From: a virus
DNA length: 22,078 bases
Virus record (IMG/VR): IMGVR_UViG_3300003690_000454
Span: 1 to 22,078 of that record
Strand: one strand, 5' to 3'
The position numbers were made by a program, and so were the translations under genes. Below the pieces are notes generated by a model. That model saw only the letters and a program-made list of their open reading frames with translations, ran no database searches and was not told the origin of the DNA. Shown here in pieces: positions 3,991 to 22,014 of the stretch (position 1 is the first letter of the stretch; each line of letters starts with the position of its first letter).

Positions 3991-4808
3991 ACCTGCATCA
4001 ATCGCAGCTCGCGACCTGGTCGCCGGTCACGCTGGACGATGCGAAGCAGCATAGCCGGATCGACATCGACGACGACAACGCGCTGATCACCGCGCAACTG
4101 TCGGCAGCGGTGGTGCGTGGTGAGCATGTGACCAATCGGCAATTCGCGCCGGCGACATGGGTGCTGAAGCTCGACGCCTTTCCTGGCACCGACACAATCG
4201 AGCTGCCGAAGCCGCCGCTGCTATCTATCTCATCGATCCAGTACGTCGATACCGACGGCGCAACGCAGACATTCAGCAGCAGCGACTACAGCGCCGACCG
4301 AACAAGCGAGCCGGGACGGGTGATACTTGGCTACAGCAATTCTTGGCCGTCGGCCCGAGCGCAGCCGGACGCGATCACGATCACCTATATCGCCGGGTAT
4401 GGTTCGGTCGTGACGGCGGTCAATGCGACGAATGTCTTCACGATCGCCAGCGGCGGCAGGACGTATGCCGACAATATGCAAGTGCGGCTATTCTCGGTCG
4501 GCGGCGATGTCCCGACCGGCCTGACTGCCGACACCGCATACTACATTCGCGACGTGAGCGGCTCGACATTCAAGCTGGCGCTGACCGCCGGCGGCACTGC
4601 GATCAGCATCAGCACGGACGGAACCGGCACGATCTACATCGACGAGGTGCCGGAAATCATCAAGGCCGCAATCAAGCTGGAGGCCGCGCAGCTGTATGAG
4701 AATCGAGAAAGCTACCTGTCCGATGTTCAGGGCGCTACGCCGGTGACCAATCCGACAGCGGACGACATCTACCGACAGTTACACATTCACACGACGGAGT
4801 GGACATGA
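3987..4808 (+). CDS. Head-tail connector, HK97 gp6-like, with an inserted beta domain
   Basis: A 273-residue protein. The flanks match the phage gp6-like head-tail connector: WSPVTLDDAKQHSRIDIDDD and DNALITAQLSAAV at the N-terminus, ITITYIAGYG near 131-140, and VPEIIKAAIKLEAAQLYENR at 221-240, which in ordinary family members follows the AGYG segment directly. Here about 75 residues (about 142-218) interrupt that junction; they look like a beta-sandwich module with VPTGLTADTAYYI and STFKLALTAGGTAI. The family normally has 100-200 residues, so the insert explains the extra length. The protein would form the ring under the portal. It overlaps both neighbours by 4 bases. The insert resembles the beta domain of the next three genes. 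Confidence 0.8.
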   Translation: MNLHQSQLATWSPVTLDDAKQHSRIDIDDDNALITAQLSAAVVRGEHVTNRQFAPATWVLKLDAFPGTDTIELPKPPLLSISSIQYVDTDGATQTFSSSDYSADRTSEPGRVILGYSNSWPSARAQPDAITITYIAGYGSVVTAVNATNVFTIASGGRTYADNMQVRLFSVGGDVPTGLTADTAYYIRDVSGSTFKLALTAGGTAISISTDGTGTIYIDEVPEIIKAAIKLEAAQLYENRESYLSDVQGATPVTNPTADDIYRQLHIHTTEWT

Positions 4809-5515
4809 CGGCGATACAATATGCGACATCGCGCCGGCTCGATCAGATAATAGACAGCCAGGGTGACGGCACCGGAACAGTCAATCAAGCGCAGGGCGCG
4901 AAGACAGTTTCGGGTGCGACCAACGCCACACCGATCGTCGTGACGGCAACCTCGCACGGATACAGTGATGGTGATTTCGTGAACATTACCGGCGTCGTGG
5001 GAAACACTGCCTGCAACGATCTGCACATCATCCGAAATAAGACATCGAACACGTTCGAGCTGACGACGCCAGCGGGTGCAAACGTCGCCGGGAACGGTTC
5101 ATACTCGAGCGGCGGTGCGGCACATCTGTCATTCACCTGCAAGCCGGCAGCTGGTGAGCAGTTCTGTTTACATAAATTTACTGGATACTTTCTCGATAGC
5201 GGCATAACGGACGATCTTTACATGGCCGAGGCTGCACTGTCCGTCGGAATTAAAATCGAGATACGGCAGAACACAACGCTGGTACATACGGTATCACCGA
5301 CACCGATTAAGACGGCACCCGTCGGCTGGTCATTGGGTGCATTGCCGATGCAATTTGCCGAGTCACTGGGGAGTGCAGCGCATTCATTCGCTTGGCGTTT
5401 TTCGAGTTGTTTTATCAATCTCGACGGCGACGCAGATGATTTTTTTGTGGTTCTTCACAGCGATTCCATTGCAATCGAAGAGCAGGTAATGAGCATCCAC
5501 GGCGAGACGATATGA
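4805..5515 (+). CDS. Structural protein with E1-FCCH-like domain, tandem paralogue 1
   Basis: A 236-residue protein. ATG 4805 is used because of the ATGA overlap and the GGAG just upstream; a GTG two codons earlier is possible. Domain one (about 33-107) carries TATSHGYSDGDFVNITGVVG and then NTFELTTPAG, the pattern that phage proteins share with the FCCH domain of ubiquitin-activating E1. In phages this is a structural beta barrel and says nothing about ubiquitin. Domain two (about 108-236) contains AALSVGIKIEIRQNTT and TPIKTAPVGWSLG and ends in MSIHGETI. It is the first of three adjacent paralogues. Its N-terminal half is nearly identical in DNA to the second copy. Placement in the neck operon suggests a neck, collar or head-fibre protein; that is inference. 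Confidence 0.7.
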   Translation: MTAIQYATSRRLDQIIDSQGDGTGTVNQAQGAKTVSGATNATPIVVTATSHGYSDGDFVNITGVVGNTACNDLHIIRNKTSNTFELTTPAGANVAGNGSYSSGGAAHLSFTCKPAAGEQFCLHKFTGYFLDSGITDDLYMAEAALSVGIKIEIRQNTTLVHTVSPTPIKTAPVGWSLGALPMQFAESLGSAAHSFAWRFSSCFINLDGDADDFFVVLHSDSIAIEEQVMSIHGETI

Positions 5516-6216
5516 TCGCATATAGTCCATCCAGGCGGCTCGACCAGGTACTCGACAGCCAGGGCGACGGCACCGGAACGATTAACCAAGCACAGGGCGC
5601 GAAGACAGTTTCGGGTGCGACCAACGCCACACCGATCGTCGTGACGGCAACCTCGCACGGATACAGCGATGGTGATTTCGTGAACATTACCGGCGTCGTA
5701 GGAAACACTGCCTGCAACGATCTGCATATCATCCAGAACAAGACATCGAACACATTCGAATTAACCACACCGGCAGGAGCAAACGTCGCCGGGAACGGTT
5801 CATACTCGAGCGGCGGTGCTGCGCACTTATCGTTCGCGTGTAAGCCAGCAGCTGGTGAAACATATTGCGTGAATAGATTCACCGGATACTTCATCGACTC
5901 CAGTTCGAGGGACGACTTTTACATGAACGAGGCTGCACTGAGCGTCGGCATCAAAGTGCAGGTGCGGCAGAATACGACGCTGGAGTATACGGTATCGCCG
6001 ACACCGATCAAGACGGCTCCGGTCGGCTGGTCACTGGGTGCATTGCCGATGCAAGTGGTCGATGCAATGGGCGGCGCCGCCTATTCTTTTAATTGGATTT
6101 TCTCGAGCTGTTTGATGAATCTTGACGGCGATACAGATGATTTTTTTGTAGTCCTTCACAGCGATGCAATCGCAATCGAACAGCAACTTATGAGCATCCA
6201 CGGAGAGTCGATATGA
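5512..6216 (+). CDS. Structural protein with E1-FCCH-like domain, tandem paralogue 2
   Basis: A 234-residue paralogue of the gene before it, starting on ATG 5512 within the previous stop. From 5593 to 5734 it differs from 4892-5033 at only three bases that I can count, so this half was duplicated or converted recently. The C-terminal domain has diverged more (SSSRDDFYMNEAALSVGIKV against the first copy's SGITDDLYMAEAALSVGIKI). It keeps the shared PIKTAPVGWSLGALPMQ and IAIEQQLMSIHGESI segments. Differences cluster in the surface-like stretch before the YM(A/N)EAALSVGIK segment and in the stretch after GALPMQ. Confidence 0.7.
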   Translation: MIAYSPSRRLDQVLDSQGDGTGTINQAQGAKTVSGATNATPIVVTATSHGYSDGDFVNITGVVGNTACNDLHIIQNKTSNTFELTTPAGANVAGNGSYSSGGAAHLSFACKPAAGETYCVNRFTGYFIDSSSRDDFYMNEAALSVGIKVQVRQNTTLEYTVSPTPIKTAPVGWSLGALPMQVVDAMGGAAYSFNWIFSSCLMNLDGDTDDFFVVLHSDAIAIEQQLMSIHGESI

Positions 6217-6917
6217 TCGCATACAGTCCATCCCGCCAGTTGAGCCAGGTACTCGACAGCCAGGGCGACGGCACCGGCACGATCAACCAGGTATTCGCAG
6301 CGAAATCTATTACCGGCGCGACCAATGCCACACCGATCGTCGTCACTTCATCGAGTCATGGATACAGCGATGGTGACTTCGTGAACATCACCGGAGTCGT
6401 CGGAAACACTGCGTGTAACGATCTGCACATCGTCGCGAATAAGACGGCAAACACGTTCGAATTAACGACGCCAGCGGGTGCAGATGTCGCCGGGAACGGT
6501 TCATACTCGAGCGCCGGTGCGATACATCTGTCATTCGCCTGCAAGCCGGCGGCTGGTGAAACATTCTGCTTGCATAAGTTGAACGGATATTTTATCGATT
6601 CCGCTGCCACTCACAATCTATACATGGCCGAGGCTGCACTGAGCGTCGGCATCAAAGTGCAGGTGCGCCAGAATACGACGCTGATACATACGATCTCACC
6701 GCAGCCGATCAAGACTGCACCCGTCGGCTGGTCACTGGGCGCCGATCAAGGATCATTCGACGAAGGCATCAGCGGCGAACCGTATCAGTTCGTGTGGAGC
6801 TTCGAGGACTGCATCGTGAACATGACCGGCGATGCCAACGAGTTCTTTGTCATTCTGAATTCCGATGCGATCGCAATCGAGCAGCAGATAATGAGCGTCC
6901 ACGGAGAGTCGATCTGA
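6213..6917 (+). CDS. Structural protein with E1-FCCH-like domain, tandem paralogue 3
   Basis: A 234-residue third copy, again in ATGA overlap. It is the most diverged of the three: VFAAKSITGATNATPIVVTS replaces the AQGAKTVSGAT start of the beta domain, and the C-terminal region has GADQGSFDEGISGEPYQFVW where the others have GALPMQ. It keeps the HGYSDGDFVNITGVVGNTAC core and the ending IMSVHGESI. Its stop overlaps the ATG of the joining protein (TGATG). Confidence 0.7.
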   Translation: MIAYSPSRQLSQVLDSQGDGTGTINQVFAAKSITGATNATPIVVTSSSHGYSDGDFVNITGVVGNTACNDLHIVANKTANTFELTTPAGADVAGNGSYSSAGAIHLSFACKPAAGETFCLHKLNGYFIDSAATHNLYMAEAALSVGIKVQVRQNTTLIHTISPQPIKTAPVGWSLGADQGSFDEGISGEPYQFVWSFEDCIVNMTGDANEFFVILNSDAIAIEQQIMSVHGESI

Positions 6918-7252
6918 TGCCGTCCGCAGGGCAAATGCGAAACCGGGTCGAGGTGCAACAGGCGCAGGAAAGTGCCGACGCGCACGGGCAGACCTCTCGC
7001 GCCTGGACAACGATCGCGACACGCTGGGCATCGATTTCGTCCGAGGCCGGCGATGAAGTTCTCGAGGGCGGGCGCCAGGACGTGCGCAACACGCACAGCA
7101 TCCGAATGCGTAGCTTCCCGGCGGTGCAGGCTGACACGCACCGGCTGATCGTGCGCGGCATTGTCTACGACATTAACAGCAGCACGCACGACCGTGCCGG
7201 CAAGCAGCGCACAACTGCAATCGCAGCGACAGATACAGGCGAAACGGCATGA
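6917..7252 (+). CDS. Head-tail joining (head closure) protein
   Basis: A 111-residue protein with the pattern of the phage head-tail joining family (SPP1 gp16 / HK97 gp7 type): MRNRVEVQQAQESADAHGQT and RAWTTIATRWASISSEAGDE near the start, then TRH-like RNTHSIRMR, and RGIVYDINSSTHDRAGKQR as the final strands. It would cap the connector and retain DNA. ATG 6917 is supported by the TGATG overlap; the open frame extends upstream only as a shadow of the previous gene. Confidence 0.85.
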   Translation: MPSAGQMRNRVEVQQAQESADAHGQTSRAWTTIATRWASISSEAGDEVLEGGRQDVRNTHSIRMRSFPAVQADTHRLIVRGIVYDINSSTHDRAGKQRTTAIAATDTGETA

Positions 7253-18002: not shown

Positions 18003-18028
18003 CAACCGACACCGAGGGCAGCACGATG
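18003..18028 (+). repeat. Start-associated repeat, copy 1
   Basis: CAACCGACACCGAGG (18003-18017) then GCAGCACGATG, ending at the start codon of the 18026 gene. It is the first copy downstream of the promoter and lies wholly in the untranslated leader. Confidence 0.75.
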
Positions 18029-18241
18029 ACGATTGAGAAACAAATTGAGTACTTGTGGAACAGTTCATTGGAGAGAGCAATTGGCTCAGGTGTCGCTGAT
18101 CCGTTTGGCTTTGCTGATGCTTCGACAGCATCACTGAATGCCAAGCTCAGGAAAATCAACAGGCTGGAAGTCAACGGCAGATTGCAGCAGGGAAGTCGGG
18201 CAGGACGGAAACAACAGCAAATTATGAGGGCAGCACGATGA
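18026..18241 (+). CDS. Small hypothetical protein
   Basis: A 71-residue protein, first of the small-gene block. ATG 18026 is chosen because of the GAGGGCAG site and repeat; an upstream in-frame ATG at 17978 coincides with the expected transcription start and has no ribosome site. The body is helical (KQIEYLWNSSLERAIGSGVA) and ends in a basic tail QSRAGRKQQQ-like followed by MRAAR, where RAAR is encoded by the repeat of the next gene. No family recognised. Confidence 0.6.
   Translation: MTIEKQIEYLWNSSLERAIGSGVADPFGFADASTASLNAKLRKINRLEVNGRLQQGSRAGRKQQQIMRAAR
18211..18240 (+). repeat. Start-associated repeat, copy 2
   Basis: ACAACAGCAAATTAT followed by the exact core GAGGGCAGCACGATG (18226-18240). 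The A/C part has diverged, but the 15-base core is intact; translated, it gives the C-terminal RAAR of the upstream protein. Confidence 0.7.
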
Positions 18242-18519
18242 AGATTTACAGAGTAAGCTACAGCGGACATACGGCATCCGATCCTGACGCAGTGATGGGG
18301 GGAGCGGGGGAGCCGTTTGAGTATGGATACAGCTATCACGCATCGAAGCGGGAAGCGTCGGCGTGCAGGCATCAATTCATGCTGCGGGAAGGGGGCAATG
18401 ATCCGTTCAGCGAGATTGACGAGTACAGCTTCCCCATCAGAAAGAAGGGAATGCTCCTGGCACTGCAGCAGCTTGCAAGTCATGGCACGGACGGCTACCT
18501 CGGGCGCGAGTCATGCTGA
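18238..18519 (+). CDS. Small hypothetical phage protein
   Basis: A 93-residue protein in ATGA overlap. It begins MKIYRVSYSGHTASDPDAVM, continues with EYGYSYHASKREASACRHQF and has an acidic segment then SFPIRKKGMLLALQQLASHG near the end. This strand-helix-strand-helix layout, with a final 'fPxxKKGmLxxLxxxA' helix, is common among small early phage proteins of unknown role. Confidence 0.65.
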   Translation: MKIYRVSYSGHTASDPDAVMGGAGEPFEYGYSYHASKREASACRHQFMLREGGNDPFSEIDEYSFPIRKKGMLLALQQLASHGTDGYLGRESC

Positions 18520-18540
18520 TCCACAATTCACCACGCACCG

Positions 18541-18572
18541 CAACCACAACCACAACCGAGGGCAGCACGATG
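18541..18572 (+). repeat. Start-associated repeat, copy 3
   Basis: CAACCACAACCACAACCGAG (18541-18560) then GGCAGCACGATG. The CAACCA unit is tandemly duplicated here, giving a longer A/C tract than in most copies. Confidence 0.8.
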
Positions 18573-18812
18573 ACGACGACGAAGACATTCCAAAAACGCT
18601 GTGCTTCACAACTACGGCACTACGGGAACGAAAACCTGACTGCTTGTCCAGATTGGGTGTTTGCCCATTGCGGTTTACCGCAACCCGATTGGGACAGGAT
18701 ATATGGAGCGGCGGATTCTGCGACCTACTCATTAGAAAACCGCAGCTTTCGCGAATACTGGGAAATGCACCGGCATACGACGACACCCACAACCGAGAGG
18801 ACCGCACGATGA
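18570..18812 (+). CDS. Small hypothetical protein, Cys/Trp-containing
   Basis: An 80-residue protein. ATG 18570 is chosen from the repeat; the frame is open from ATG 18513, but that would translate the repeat as TATTTTTEGST. The folded part includes RCASQLRHYGNENLTACPDW, then HCGLPQPDWDRIYGAADSA, and it ends with the repeat-derived TTPTTERTAR. No family recognised. Confidence 0.6.
   Translation: MTTTKTFQKRCASQLRHYGNENLTACPDWVFAHCGLPQPDWDRIYGAADSATYSLENRSFREYWEMHRHTTTPTTERTAR
18786..18811 (+). repeat. Start-associated repeat, copy 4
   Basis: CCCACAACCGAGAGG (18786-18800) then ACCGCACGATG. One extra GA and a GC-to-CC change separate it from the consensus. It lies inside the 3' end of the upstream gene. 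Confidence 0.7.
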
Positions 18813-19066
18813 GAAAAACGCGAGACATGACCAAGATGCAATTCGCCAAAGCCTGTGTGCAGTGCGGATTCGAGCCGAGCAGTTTCGGTGGCGGCTACTT
18901 TTGCATCTACAAATACGCAGGTGGTTCAACAAATAATGTCTATGCCCGCAACGGCGGTGATTCCTACCGCGAGATGCTGGCATATCTCAAAAAGATGCAG
19001 AGACACGATGAAAAGAAAAGAGAAGAAGCCAACGAAACAACCACAACCGAGAGGGCAGCACGATGA
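18809..19066 (+). CDS. Small hypothetical protein
   Basis: An 85-residue protein in ATGA overlap; the frame is open far upstream only as a shadow. It begins MRKTRDMTKMQFAKACVQCG, has the aromatic segment GGGYFCIYKYAGGSTNNVYA, and a charged helix REMLAYLKKMQRHDEKKREE. It ends ETTTTERAAR, which is the in-frame translation of the next gene's start-associated repeat. Confidence 0.65.
   Translation: MRKTRDMTKMQFAKACVQCGFEPSSFGGGYFCIYKYAGGSTNNVYARNGGDSYREMLAYLKKMQRHDEKKREEANETTTTERAAR
19038..19065 (+). repeat. Start-associated repeat, copy 5
   Basis: CAACCACAACCGAGAGG (19038-19054) then GCAGCACGATG; this is close to the consensus plus a GA insertion shared with copy 4. Confidence 0.8.
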
Positions 19067-19419
19067 CGACAACGAAAGCAACCGACGAACTACTGACCAA
19101 GATCGCAGTTCACTTTTTCCCGACCTGCGAAACACTCGAAACGCGCAACAGCGACAGCCTCGACTTCCATGAGACTGCGGTCTGGTCGATCAAGGAAGCA
19201 CTGCAGCAGGCGTTCGAGCTTGGCCGGCAGACGGCTGACGAGACACCGACAACCGAGGCAAGCACGATCGACGACCGTGACCGTGGATTCGCTGGCGGGA
19301 TCGCCGACGCCATCATGGATGCGATCTATGAAACCTGCCGGGGCAATGATGTGCCGGTCGATGCGATGACAGCTATCGGTCGCGAGGCATTACGCCAGGC
19401 GTCCGAGCGCAACGGATAA
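19063..19419 (+). CDS. DUF6900-like small phage protein with C-terminal extension
   Basis: A 118-residue protein. The first 60 residues contain ETLETRNSDSLDFHETAVWS followed by IKEALQQAFELGRQ, a pattern I associate with DUF6900, a small family common in phages and mobile elements and without known function. The part after residue 62 starts with PTTEASTI, encoded by a decayed start-associated repeat, and continues as a separate helical unit (GFAGGIADAIMDAIYETCRG, then VDAMTAIGREALRQA). The gene therefore looks like two former ORFs joined in frame. Confidence 0.7.
   Translation: MTTTKATDELLTKIAVHFFPTCETLETRNSDSLDFHETAVWSIKEALQQAFELGRQTADETPTTEASTIDDRDRGFAGGIADAIMDAIYETCRGNDVPVDAMTAIGREALRQASERNG
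19244..19269 (+). repeat. Decayed start-associated repeat inside a coding region
   Basis: CACCGACAACCGAGG (19244-19258) then CAAGCACGATC. The expected ATG reads ATC, and the copy is translated in frame as part of the DUF6900-like protein. Confidence 0.6.
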
Positions 19420-19420
19420 G

Positions 19421-19452
19421 CAACCACAACCACAACCGAGGCCAACACGATG
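19421..19452 (+). repeat. Start-associated repeat, copy 6 (intergenic)
   Basis: CAACCACAACCACAACCGAG (19421-19440), identical to copy 3 over 20 bases, then GCCAACACGATG. It begins just after the TAA stop of the upstream gene. Confidence 0.8.
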
Positions 19453-19630
19453 ACGAAGACACCGAAGAACCAATCAGGCATTCCGGCGCCTGGTGCGCGA
19501 GTTACCTGGCGAGTCGGACAGCGCGAGAGTGCAAGGGGCCGTGGCGCGTGACCAGCGCGTGCGCGAGCTGCTCGTAGACGAAGACAACTTGGCGATCCTT
19601 ATCGCCAAACTGTCCGAGGTCTACCGATAG
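19450..19630 (+). pseudogene. Small gene with an apparent frameshift
   Basis: ATG 19450 after a start-associated repeat opens MTKTPKNQ but this frame ends after 33 codons at TGA 19549-19551. The +1 frame has protein-like content from about 19475: AFRRLVRELPGESDSARVQG, then AVARDQRVRELLVDEDNLAI and LIAKLSEVYR, ending at TAG 19628-19630. Joined, the product would be about 59 residues and helical. The change of frame must fall near 19470-19483. It may be a real mutation, an assembly error or a recoding site. A GTG at 19493 could start the second part alone, but no ribosome site precedes it. Confidence 0.5.
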
Positions 19631-19655
19631 CTACTGACAGTACGACGTGATGACA

Positions 19656-19741
19656 GGTGTGGGTGGTGGGCCTTTTCCCTTAACTTTTGCCTTATGAAGG
19701 AAAATTATGAAAGTTAGGGTTTCAGCTACACCACCCACACC
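19656..19741. other. Large nested stem-loop in a non-coding interval
   Basis: GGTGTGGGTGGTG (19656-19668) is an exact inverse of CACCACCCACACC (19729-19741). Inside, CCCTTAACTTT (19677-19687) pairs with AAAGTTAGGG (19710-19719) with one bulged T, and CCTT/AAGG close the tip (19690-19700). The region between the SAS-linked small genes and the HTH gene (19631-19870) holds no gene. The stem has no T run after it on the + strand. It could be a structured RNA, a replication or packaging element, or a recombination site. Confidence 0.7.
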
Positions 19742-19750
19742 GCCTATGTG

Positions 19751-19780
19751 AAAAACATTCCCGAGACTACTCTTGGGAAT
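19751..19780 (-). terminator. Hairpin reading as an intrinsic terminator on the - strand
   Basis: ATTCCCGAGA (19757-19766) and TCTTGGGAAT (19771-19780) form a 10-bp stem with one G-U and a 4-nt loop. Read on the - strand it is followed by TGTTTTTC. No - strand gene is recognised here, so the stem may instead serve as an operator or + strand leader structure. Confidence 0.4.
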
Positions 19781-19809
19781 TGACAAATCCGGCCGGTATC
19801 CGTTTGCAT
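19780..19809 (+). promoter_or_regulatory. Promoter candidate upstream of the HTH gene
   Basis: A perfect TTGACA at 19780-19785 touches the preceding hairpin. The best -10 at 18-nt spacing is weak (TTGCAT, 19804-19809); an alternative pair is TTGCAT 19804-19809 with TAATTT 19826-19831. Direction and place fit the gene at 19871. Confidence 0.4.
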
Positions 19810-19870
19810 TTGTTTTTATGCGCGGTAATTTGTCGAGCAATACGGCGAACAACGAAACAAGCGAGGCAAT

Positions 19871-20077
19871 ATGAAAGACGAAAGAAACACGCAATGGGGA
19901 ACGGCAGCAGACGCCGCCGCGATCCTTGACGTGTCGATCGGCACTGTTGACCGATGGATGCGCGAGGGCCGGGTGACGTTCCGCAAGCTGGGGCAGCGGC
20001 TGAGTCTTGAGGACGTGCGGCGCCTTGCGGAAGTCGGCGAGGTGCAGTACATGGCCGAGCGCGAGGTGATGACATGA
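19871..20077 (+). CDS. Excisionase-type / MerR-like HTH DNA-binding protein
   Basis: A 68-residue single-domain protein. The segment WGTAADAAAILDVSIGTVDR followed by WMREGRVTFRKLGQRLSLED is the excisionase-family winged helix (HTH_17): a first helix, the recognition helix with Thr-Val-Asp-Arg-Trp, and the wing Phe-Arg-Lys-Leu-Gly-Gln-Arg. Such proteins act as transcription regulators or recombination directionality factors. No integrase is visible in the window, so I would not call it Xis. It is first after the non-coding interval and the promoter candidate, and its leader (ACAACGAAACAAGCGAGGCA) is a faint relative of the start-associated repeats. Confidence 0.8.
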   Translation: MKDERNTQWGTAADAAAILDVSIGTVDRWMREGRVTFRKLGQRLSLEDVRRLAEVGEVQYMAEREVMT

Positions 20078-20135
20078 AAGCGTGACGAGTCGAGTTCGCA
20101 TTACTGATTCTAAACTATCACAGCAGGGGGAAGAA

Positions 20136-20978
20136 ATGGCGAAGGCAACGATCGAGACAATCAGCCCGAGACAAGCGGAGAAAATGCTGGCAATGAATAC
20201 GGGCAATTTCCGCCCGATCAGCAAGATCCGGACGACCCTATACGCCCAGGAAATGGCGTCAGGGAACTGGGACTGCAACGGCGAGTCGATAAAGATGAAC
20301 GGCAATGAACTGATCGACGGGCAGCACCGGCTTGAGGCAATTATCGAGTCAGGCATTCCGATCACATCAGTCGTCGTGCGTGGTCTGGAATCAGATGGCC
20401 GCACCATTGACCGAGGCCAACCGCGATCAATGGCGCAATGGCTCAGTCATAAGGGGATCAAGAATGGATCCGCCATGCCGGGGCTGGTTCGGTGCTGTAT
20501 AGGATATGAAGAGGGCCTTTGGGGCAGGCAAACGTCTCGGTCTTATACGATCCCAGATTCCGAGATATACAGATTCATCGAATCCCACGAACCGCGATTA
20601 CAGGAAGTGATACAGGTCGTGAGCAAGTCCCGACCACTGATTGCGGGGACTCTCTCGGGTGCGGTTCTGTTCTATGGTTCCGAGCAGATTGAAGACATCG
20701 CAGCGAATCCGACTGTGCGGTGGTTCTTCGATAGGTTGACGGATGGCAAGATGCTCGACGAAGATGATGCCGTCTTCCATTTGCGGAATCGGCTGATCAA
20801 GCATTCGCCATTTACCAAGATTCCGTCATTCATCAAGCGGTCATATATGGTGATTGCCTGGAATAAGACAGTGCGCGGAGAATCCTGCACCTCGCATCAG
20901 ATGACGCTACGCATGACCGGGCCAAACAAGCCGAAGCTGCCGACGACGATCGAACGACTCAGCGAGGTGACAGCATGA
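20136..20978 (+). CDS. ParB/sulfiredoxin-fold (DGQHR motif) phage protein
   Basis: A 280-residue protein; ATG 20136 follows AGGGGG at 20125-20130, and a 54-base upstream extension has no site. The N-terminal domain contains NFRPISKIRTTLYAQEMASG, then NELIDGQHRLEAIIESGIPI with the Asp-Gly-Gln-His-Arg motif (61-65), then TIDRGQPRSMAQWL. These define the ParB-like nuclease/DGQHR fold common in phages and in DndB-type proteins. The C-terminal half is helical with several Arg/Trp residues. It may bind DNA or a nucleotide; its substrate is not known. It is in one operon with a membrane protein, a PAPS-reductase-like protein and a methyltransferase start. Confidence 0.75.
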   Translation: MAKATIETISPRQAEKMLAMNTGNFRPISKIRTTLYAQEMASGNWDCNGESIKMNGNELIDGQHRLEAIIESGIPITSVVVRGLESDGRTIDRGQPRSMAQWLSHKGIKNGSAMPGLVRCCIGYEEGLWGRQTSRSYTIPDSEIYRFIESHEPRLQEVIQVVSKSRPLIAGTLSGAVLFYGSEQIEDIAANPTVRWFFDRLTDGKMLDEDDAVFHLRNRLIKHSPFTKIPSFIKRSYMVIAWNKTVRGESCTSHQMTLRMTGPNKPKLPTTIERLSEVTA

Positions 20979-21220: not shown

Positions 21221-22014
21221 CAGATGAACTGGCAATCATCGACCTCGCCGTTGAGCAGTACAATCCGAGCCATACCTTCGCCTTGTTTTCGGGCGGTCAC
21301 GACTCGCTCTGTGCCACTCATTTAGCAAGTCAGCATCCAGCCTTCAGCGGAGTCGTACATATCAACACTGGCATCGGGATTGCGGAGACTCGGCAGTTCG
21401 TCCTCGACACCTGTGCTGAGAATGGCTGGCCGTTGAAGGAATATCATCCCGAGAGAAGTTATGAAGACCTGTGCGTCGAGCATGGATTTCCTGGCCCTGC
21501 TGGTCACGGCCTCATGTACCAGCGACTCAAGGAGAGGTGTCTTCGACAACTGGTCAGGGATTCCCGTGATCCTAATGACCGGCGGCGCAAGATTATATTC
21601 ATCTCAGGCCGGCGGCGGAATGAAAGCGCCCGGCGCATGATCACAACGACCGAATCAATAACCACCGGAACGCCCACGCCATCGCCTCGCGTCGTATGGG
21701 TGGCACCGATCATCGAATGGCTATCGGAAGATAAGCGACTCTATATGGAAGCGAATAAACTTCGCAGCAACCTTGTCAGCGACACGCTGTGCATGAGTGG
21801 CGAGTGCCTTTGTGGCGCCTTTGCGAAGGCAAATGAACTGGAAGAGATCCGGCGCTTCTATCCTGCAGCCGCCGCCGAAATTGACCGTATATCGGCACTG
21901 GTCAAGGATGCAGGGAAGCACCACGTTTGGGGTACGCGGCCCGGCAAGCGCATCCATCCTGACCAGGCAGAATTACCGCTGTGCTGGTCGTGTCAGTCGA
22001 AGGCGGAAGCATGA
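21217..22014 (+). CDS. PAPS-reductase-like (PP-loop ATP pyrophosphatase family) protein with Cys cluster
   Basis: A 265-residue protein. The P-loop SGGHDS (25-30) is the PP-loop of the PAPS reductase/ATP sulfurylase family, with His in place of the more usual Lys, as in many phage members. HINTGIGIAETRQFV (48-62) and SGRRRNESARR (130-140) are the next family motifs. Cys192, Cys197 and Cys199 (LCMSGECLCG) plus Cys256 and Cys259 (CWSC) could hold an iron-sulfur cluster, as in DndC-type enzymes. Classical PAPS reductase has a different C-terminal Cys. Likely roles are adenylation or sulfur transfer, possibly in nucleic acid modification. ATG 21217 is set by the ATGA overlap; the frame is open upstream. 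Confidence 0.8.
   Translation: MTDELAIIDLAVEQYNPSHTFALFSGGHDSLCATHLASQHPAFSGVVHINTGIGIAETRQFVLDTCAENGWPLKEYHPERSYEDLCVEHGFPGPAGHGLMYQRLKERCLRQLVRDSRDPNDRRRKIIFISGRRRNESARRMITTTESITTGTPTPSPRVVWVAPIIEWLSEDKRLYMEANKLRSNLVSDTLCMSGECLCGAFAKANELEEIRRFYPAAAAEIDRISALVKDAGKHHVWGTRPGKRIHPDQAELPLCWSCQSKAEA

Follow-up and report, generated by a model that had tools for sequence, protein, structure and literature searches.

The window analysed here comprises 22,078 bases, which is the entire IMG/VR record of an uncultured phage contig. A spacer in its right half carries a perfect inverted repeat, and the question raised by this locus is what such a repeat does there, if anything: whether it acts on a transcript, serves as a DNA site, has been inserted as a small element or is without function.

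Results and Discussion

The inverted repeat and its statistics

The initial annotation described an 86-nt nested inverted repeat in the longest gene-free interval of the right half of the window. Both the coordinates and the exact match of the outer arms were borne out and, judged by eye, the spacer is indeed the longest gap between forward ORFs in this half. The structural features are the following:

19656–19668, no strand assigned: left arm GGTGTGGGTGGTG of the perfect 13-bp inverted repeat
19669–19728, no strand assigned: AT-rich 60-nt spacer between the arms, with an inner stem and tip that are no better than those of shuffles
19729–19741, no strand assigned: right arm CACCACCCACACC of the perfect 13-bp inverted repeat
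19757–19780, no strand assigned: second hairpin with a 10-bp stem (one G.U) and the 4-nt loop CTAC, equalled by 1 of 1000 shuffles

No other perfect inverted repeat in the window is as long as that formed by the two arms; the second-longest has 10 bp. Their chance occurrence was assessed with dinucleotide shuffles, the criterion being a perfect 13-bp repeat with a span of ≤100 nt. Such a repeat was present in 18 of 400 shuffles of the whole window; its occurrence somewhere in 22 kb is a 4–5% event and only mildly unusual for the window as a whole. For its own spacer the repeat is unusual, as shuffling of the 240 nt from 19631 to 19870 produced one in 2 of 5000 cases. Other viral loci, which partly overlap each other and total 156,174 bases, contained a single repeat of this kind, located at a contig start.

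When the 121-nt region was folded, z values of -4.15 (plus strand) and -5.17 (minus strand) were obtained and none of 200 shuffles folded equally well. The GC-rich 13-bp arms lead to a stable stem on either strand, the fold of the 86 nt being slightly better for RNA of the plus strand (-41.2, 32 pairs) than for that of the minus strand (-38.7, 30 pairs). The nested second 10-bp stem with a tip, as originally proposed, can be drawn in the form of a bulged 10-bp stem with a 4-bp tip but is not better than chance, because shuffled versions of these inner 60 nt fold equally well in 231 of 1000 cases on the plus strand and in 174 of 1000 on the minus strand. It is therefore the arms that carry the fold signal, whereas a nested design is unestablished. 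The inner 60 nt have a GC content of 37%, compared to 58% in the window. The second hairpin, ATTCCCGAGA-CTAC-TCTTGGGAAT, had been overlooked in the initial annotation and is significant.

A tRNA cloverleaf is absent, as had been stated before: ARAGORN detects neither tRNA nor tmRNA. At the stem, neither a promoter-like nor a terminator-like site was detected in a simple scan. No Rfam family reaches the gathering threshold for the element, and a lax Rfam search gave weak matches to microRNA and lncRNA models only, which we take as chance.

Gene order around the spacer

The genes of the window are arranged in the order portal, S49 protease, HK97-type capsid, head-tail connector and tape measure, followed by small genes and then by genes for HTH_17/excisionase-like, ParB-like and PAPS-reductase-like proteins. 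The phage has relatives among viral contigs in which the capsid protein is 88–94% identical; named relatives are distant, the best being a Bradyrhizobium phage with 34% identity. The spacer is bordered by two genes and contains a block that differs between the window and its relative:

19450–19630, plus strand: upstream gene, its frame disrupted by a 20-nt gap after 19476 when compared with the intact 66-aa ORF of L004
19656–19777, no strand assigned: 122-nt block missing from the sole comparable relative, which has 3 nt (GCA) instead
19871–20077, plus strand: downstream gene for a 68-aa HTH_17/excisionase-like protein, identical in the relative without the hairpin

Relatives were sought via the ParB-like protein (none found), the DUF6900 protein (one), the capsid (22 loci), the HTH protein (two) and the upstream gene (two). 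Among the contigs found, the region is present only in IMGVR_UViG_3300032820_000052 and IMGVR_UViG_3300032278_000106, which were counted as one relative because they are 100% identical over their entire overlap of 25,617 bases. The larger of the two contigs comprises 34,465 bases and was taken as a complete circular genome because of its 127-base terminal direct repeat. A DNA search with a long query matched 5 of 12 viral records drawn from the 22 loci of the capsid and DUF6900 searches; at this locus the matches were confined to these two contigs.

Twenty ORFs of the relative, 18 on one strand and 2 on the other, were compared with PHROGs; 12 matched, all of them on the strand of the 18, and neither of the two opposite-strand ORFs did. 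Downstream of the HTH gene, the relative has HNH, recombination and exonuclease genes, a Holliday junction resolvase, a helicase, a replication initiation gene, terminase and portal. Past the portal, the capsid search and the alignment with the window place capsid, tail and small genes and then the HTH gene again. Judged by this gene content, on which the terms late and early are based, the spacer marks the place where a putative late block ends and a putative early block on the same strand starts. That these blocks meet there is the main ground on which the spacer may be read as a transcript boundary.

Other features of the phage came to light in the same comparison. A repeated leader, approximately (ACAACC)nGAGGGCAGCACGATGACGA, precedes the start of five or six small genes at 18003–19456 of the window, and similar repeats exist in the relative. 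Compared to the complete relative, the window has an extra ParB-like gene (20078–20961) and an extra PAPS-reductase-like gene (21221–22010), each of which sits between conserved stretches that are otherwise adjacent. Finally, three neighbouring genes (4799–5515, 5512–6216 and 6213–6917) cross-match counterparts in the relative with approximately 69–73% DNA identity; the cross-matching of the genes within 4799–6918 looks as that of a tandemly duplicated gene family would.

The locus in the relative

The flanks of the locus are 91% (left) and 95% (right) identical between the relative and the window. The left homology stops at 19656, where the left arm begins; the absent block reaches 36 nt beyond the right arm. 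Beyond GCA in the relative and the block in the window, both share AATTGACAAA, after which a second length difference follows. As the relative has closely similar flanks and lacks the block, the element was gained or lost within the lineage. The spacer of the relative shows no significant fold (z 0.28). As the relative encodes an identical 68-aa protein and lacks the hairpin, the hairpin is needed neither by the HTH protein nor for phage growth in general and is dispensable. The hairpin is a real, single, lineage-specific one of an ordinary kind.

Search for further copies

Further copies, as expected of the small mobile repeat that had been suggested, were sought in several collections. The arms are single-copy in the phage, and the 12 viral records searched, related or distant, contain none. 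Among viral contigs, exact patterns of the 13-bp and of the 11-bp arms both gave no match; the inner 10-bp arm pattern gave four, two of which (L144 and L147) lie inside coding frames while the other two were only folded. Blastn searches in phages, plasmids and 369 gammaproteobacterial genomes detected no copy with the same arms and a similar interior, 10 of the 369 genomes giving weak partial matches. In a genome collection of 84,980 species the 11-bp arm pattern matched 67 times, according to the record titles in Stenotrophomonas (54), [Pseudomonas] hibiscicola (2), Marinobacter (5) and others (6). When read by eye, none of the 67 carries the full 13-bp arms or a similar interior.

In addition, positions 19653–19678 match adenylosuccinate synthase genes in 25 of 26 nt, with the frame RVGGGPFP, in two gammaproteobacterial genomes and one Piscirickettsia plasmid. 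Considering the E-values (3e-5 in each of the two genomes out of 369, 0.1 in plasmids) and the low complexity of the arm, this match is probably due to chance. A purA-family gene is present in neither phage record.

Chromosomal repeats of Marinobacter and Stenotrophomonas

The arm search turned up palindromic chromosomal repeats of 88–104 nt (L048:2174-2272, L108–L137 and L039–L105). L108–L137 are from Marinobacter, except for L111 and L115 from Stenotrophomonas, and L039–L105 are mostly from Stenotrophomonas. Three Marinobacter genomes gave 21–32 match rows each, a few of which are self-matches of the arms. In these repeats the core, GCCATGGATGGC ... TACANGGANGTA, is fixed, and the outer arms vary from copy to copy with their complementarity kept; among 30 copies, two-sided changes occur at 26 of 36 consensus pairs. 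A covariance model (R1) was built from these 30 copies, which are the loci returned out of 85 match rows and come from the 4 genomes to which 4 of the 67 hit loci belong. When 12 of the 67 loci were scored with it, the forward matches of repeat members reached 63–108 bits. The window element reaches 13.3 bits with an E-value of 0.85, ranking sixth of 28 background matches, and was rejected as a member. Some copies of the repeat do share its outer 11 bp, GGTGTGGGTGG/CCACCCACACC, but their conserved core, which continues from GCCATGGATGGC to TACA-GGGA-TGTA and forms two small GGA-loop hairpins, is missing from the window element.

No Rfam family reaches the threshold in 4 repeat loci, and one repeat copy used as query had no matches in phages or plasmids. 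The two NGGA loops resemble CsrA/RsmA sites. A crude tally of the gene context of the 30 copies was too noisy for use. In those parts of the literature that were accessible to our search, neither these chromosomal repeats nor an element like that of the window is described. This repeat family, in which the core is constant and each copy has its own matched pair of arms, may merit separate study.

A possible chance repeat or inserted element

Two explanations without a role for the RNA follow close behind the transcript-level role that we favour below. The repeat may have no function at all, having arisen by chance or by mutation (e.g. one arm being copied by fold-back) in a spacer that is neutral and changes fast. 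This would fit the frequency of such repeats in whole-window shuffles, the insignificant inner structure, the absence of the hairpin in the relative, the frame-shift caused by the 20-nt gap in the adjoining gene and the several length differences within the spacer; the rarity of the repeat in shuffles of the spacer and the significance of the adjacent second hairpin argue against it, and we consider it possible but rather unlikely. MITEs and other small inverted-repeat elements, on the other hand, possess short perfect terminal inverted repeats. The window element shares such repeats with MITEs, together with an AT-rich interior and its absence from the relative, and might thus be a MITE-like insertion with 13-bp terminal inverted repeats that was moved in trans by a transposase. 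In favour of this, homology to the relative breaks off where the left arm begins; the phage also differs from the relative by the ParB-like and PAPS-reductase-like genes nearby. Unlike a typical MITE, however, the element has no second copy in the phage, the 12 viral records, viral contigs, phages or plasmids, or among the 67 genomic matches of the 11-bp arms, and no target-site duplication of 4–12 nt is found even with the ends shifted by up to 2 nt. The empty-site comparison is mixed: the left edge fits an insertion, but on the right side the relative lacks a further 36 nt, so that the missing block exceeds the repeat. Of the small mobile repeat proposed initially there stands the absence of a 122-nt block in the relative, while a second copy, a duplication and a Y1 transposase are all lacking; we consider an insertion unlikely. 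A REP/RAYT element was rejected, the element being single-copy and the Y1 (RAYT) transposase domain PF01797 being present in neither of the two records.

A possible leader peptide or DNA site

A possible reading frame overlaps the right arm:

19707–19751, plus strand: putative 14-codon ORF MKVRVSATPPTPPM with AAGGA 5 nt before the ATG

In this frame the right arm encodes TPPTP, and the frame ends in TPPTPPM with the stop at 19751. It could constitute a regulatory leader (AAGGA-AAATT-ATG ... TPPTPPM stop), the translation of which would open the outer stem and alter expression of the HTH gene. The SD-like motif is properly spaced before the ATG at 19707, SD-ATG sites number 23 on the coding plus strand and 4 on the other, the arm reads PPTPP in frame with the following bases and the second hairpin follows the stop. 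SD-ATG ORFs of fewer than 20 codons are close to background, though (5 on the plus and 2 on the minus strand), the CA-rich composition of the arm readily yields such codons, and the frame is not conserved, the relative having an identical HTH gene and no leader. A leader peptide is possible but unsupported, and we regard it as improbable. The least probable proposal goes one step further: the 3' arm of the hairpin might encode a ribosome-stalling TPPTPP peptide, with stalling setting stem formation at the late/early boundary. If true, this would couple early gene expression to the translation state of the host.

A DNA site, be it a cruciform or a site for regulator binding, attachment, packaging or replication, is scarcely more probable, although the arms are perfectly palindromic and an excisionase/MerR-like HTH protein is encoded alongside. 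Of the functions originally considered, a replication origin is not supported by the cumulative GC skew, which increases at this position in the window and throughout the complete relative without any switch. Nor is a packaging or recombination site supported by the complete relative, which does without the element and yet encodes the identical 68-aa HTH protein. Moreover, no tyrosine or serine recombinase (Phage_integrase or Resolvase match) is present in the two records, of which the window is a partial and the relative a complete genome, and the terminase genes of the relative are approximately 11 kb away. A phage attachment site was rejected on the same basis, neither of these records containing an integrase gene.

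A hairpin possibly acting on the transcript

We tentatively favour a hairpin that acts at the level of the transcript, as a stabiliser, a processing site or an insulator at the late/early boundary, while giving this reading less than an even chance. Forward transcripts would run over the spacer that separates the last late gene from the first early one, and the GC-rich 13-bp stem would fold in the RNA, thereby marking the boundary of the two units. It could do so by blocking 3' exonucleases, by serving as a substrate for a double-strand RNase or by shielding the early leader from late read-through. We infer transcription across the hairpin, its action as RNA and its role at the boundary from its setting: a lineage-specific stem-loop, followed by a second small one, would lie in an untranslated spacer of a phage whose recognised genes are on one strand.

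The points that count for this reading are that none of 200 shuffles fold equally well, that the plus-strand fold is slightly better, that the element occupies a gap between forward genes and that the second hairpin is significant. Against it count the lack of significant structure at the junction of the relative, which indicates that the boundary needs none, the lack of a recognised RNA family and the 4–5% chance in the whole window. A structured RNA, as listed in the initial annotation, is thus compatible with the stable stem, while the insignificant inner structure and the relative without the element do not speak for it.

Two known kinds of hairpin invite comparison. Intrinsic (Rho-independent) terminators also have a GC-rich stem in an intergenic spacer, but the window element, stable as its stem is, has a 60-nt loop region and no T run after the stem on either strand, as had been noted before, and was rejected as such a terminator. 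The intergenic processing hairpins of phages, the RNase III sites of T7 among them, are stem-loops between genes transcribed in one direction and do not require a U-tract. The window element resembles them in being a stem-loop between genes of one-direction transcription and in lacking a U-tract; in contrast to the T7 sites, its inner helix is insignificant and it is not conserved even in the nearest relative.

The hairpin by itself opens no large question. If it acts on the RNA, it would provide another case in which a transcript boundary has been changed by the gain or loss of a single stem-loop between close phages.
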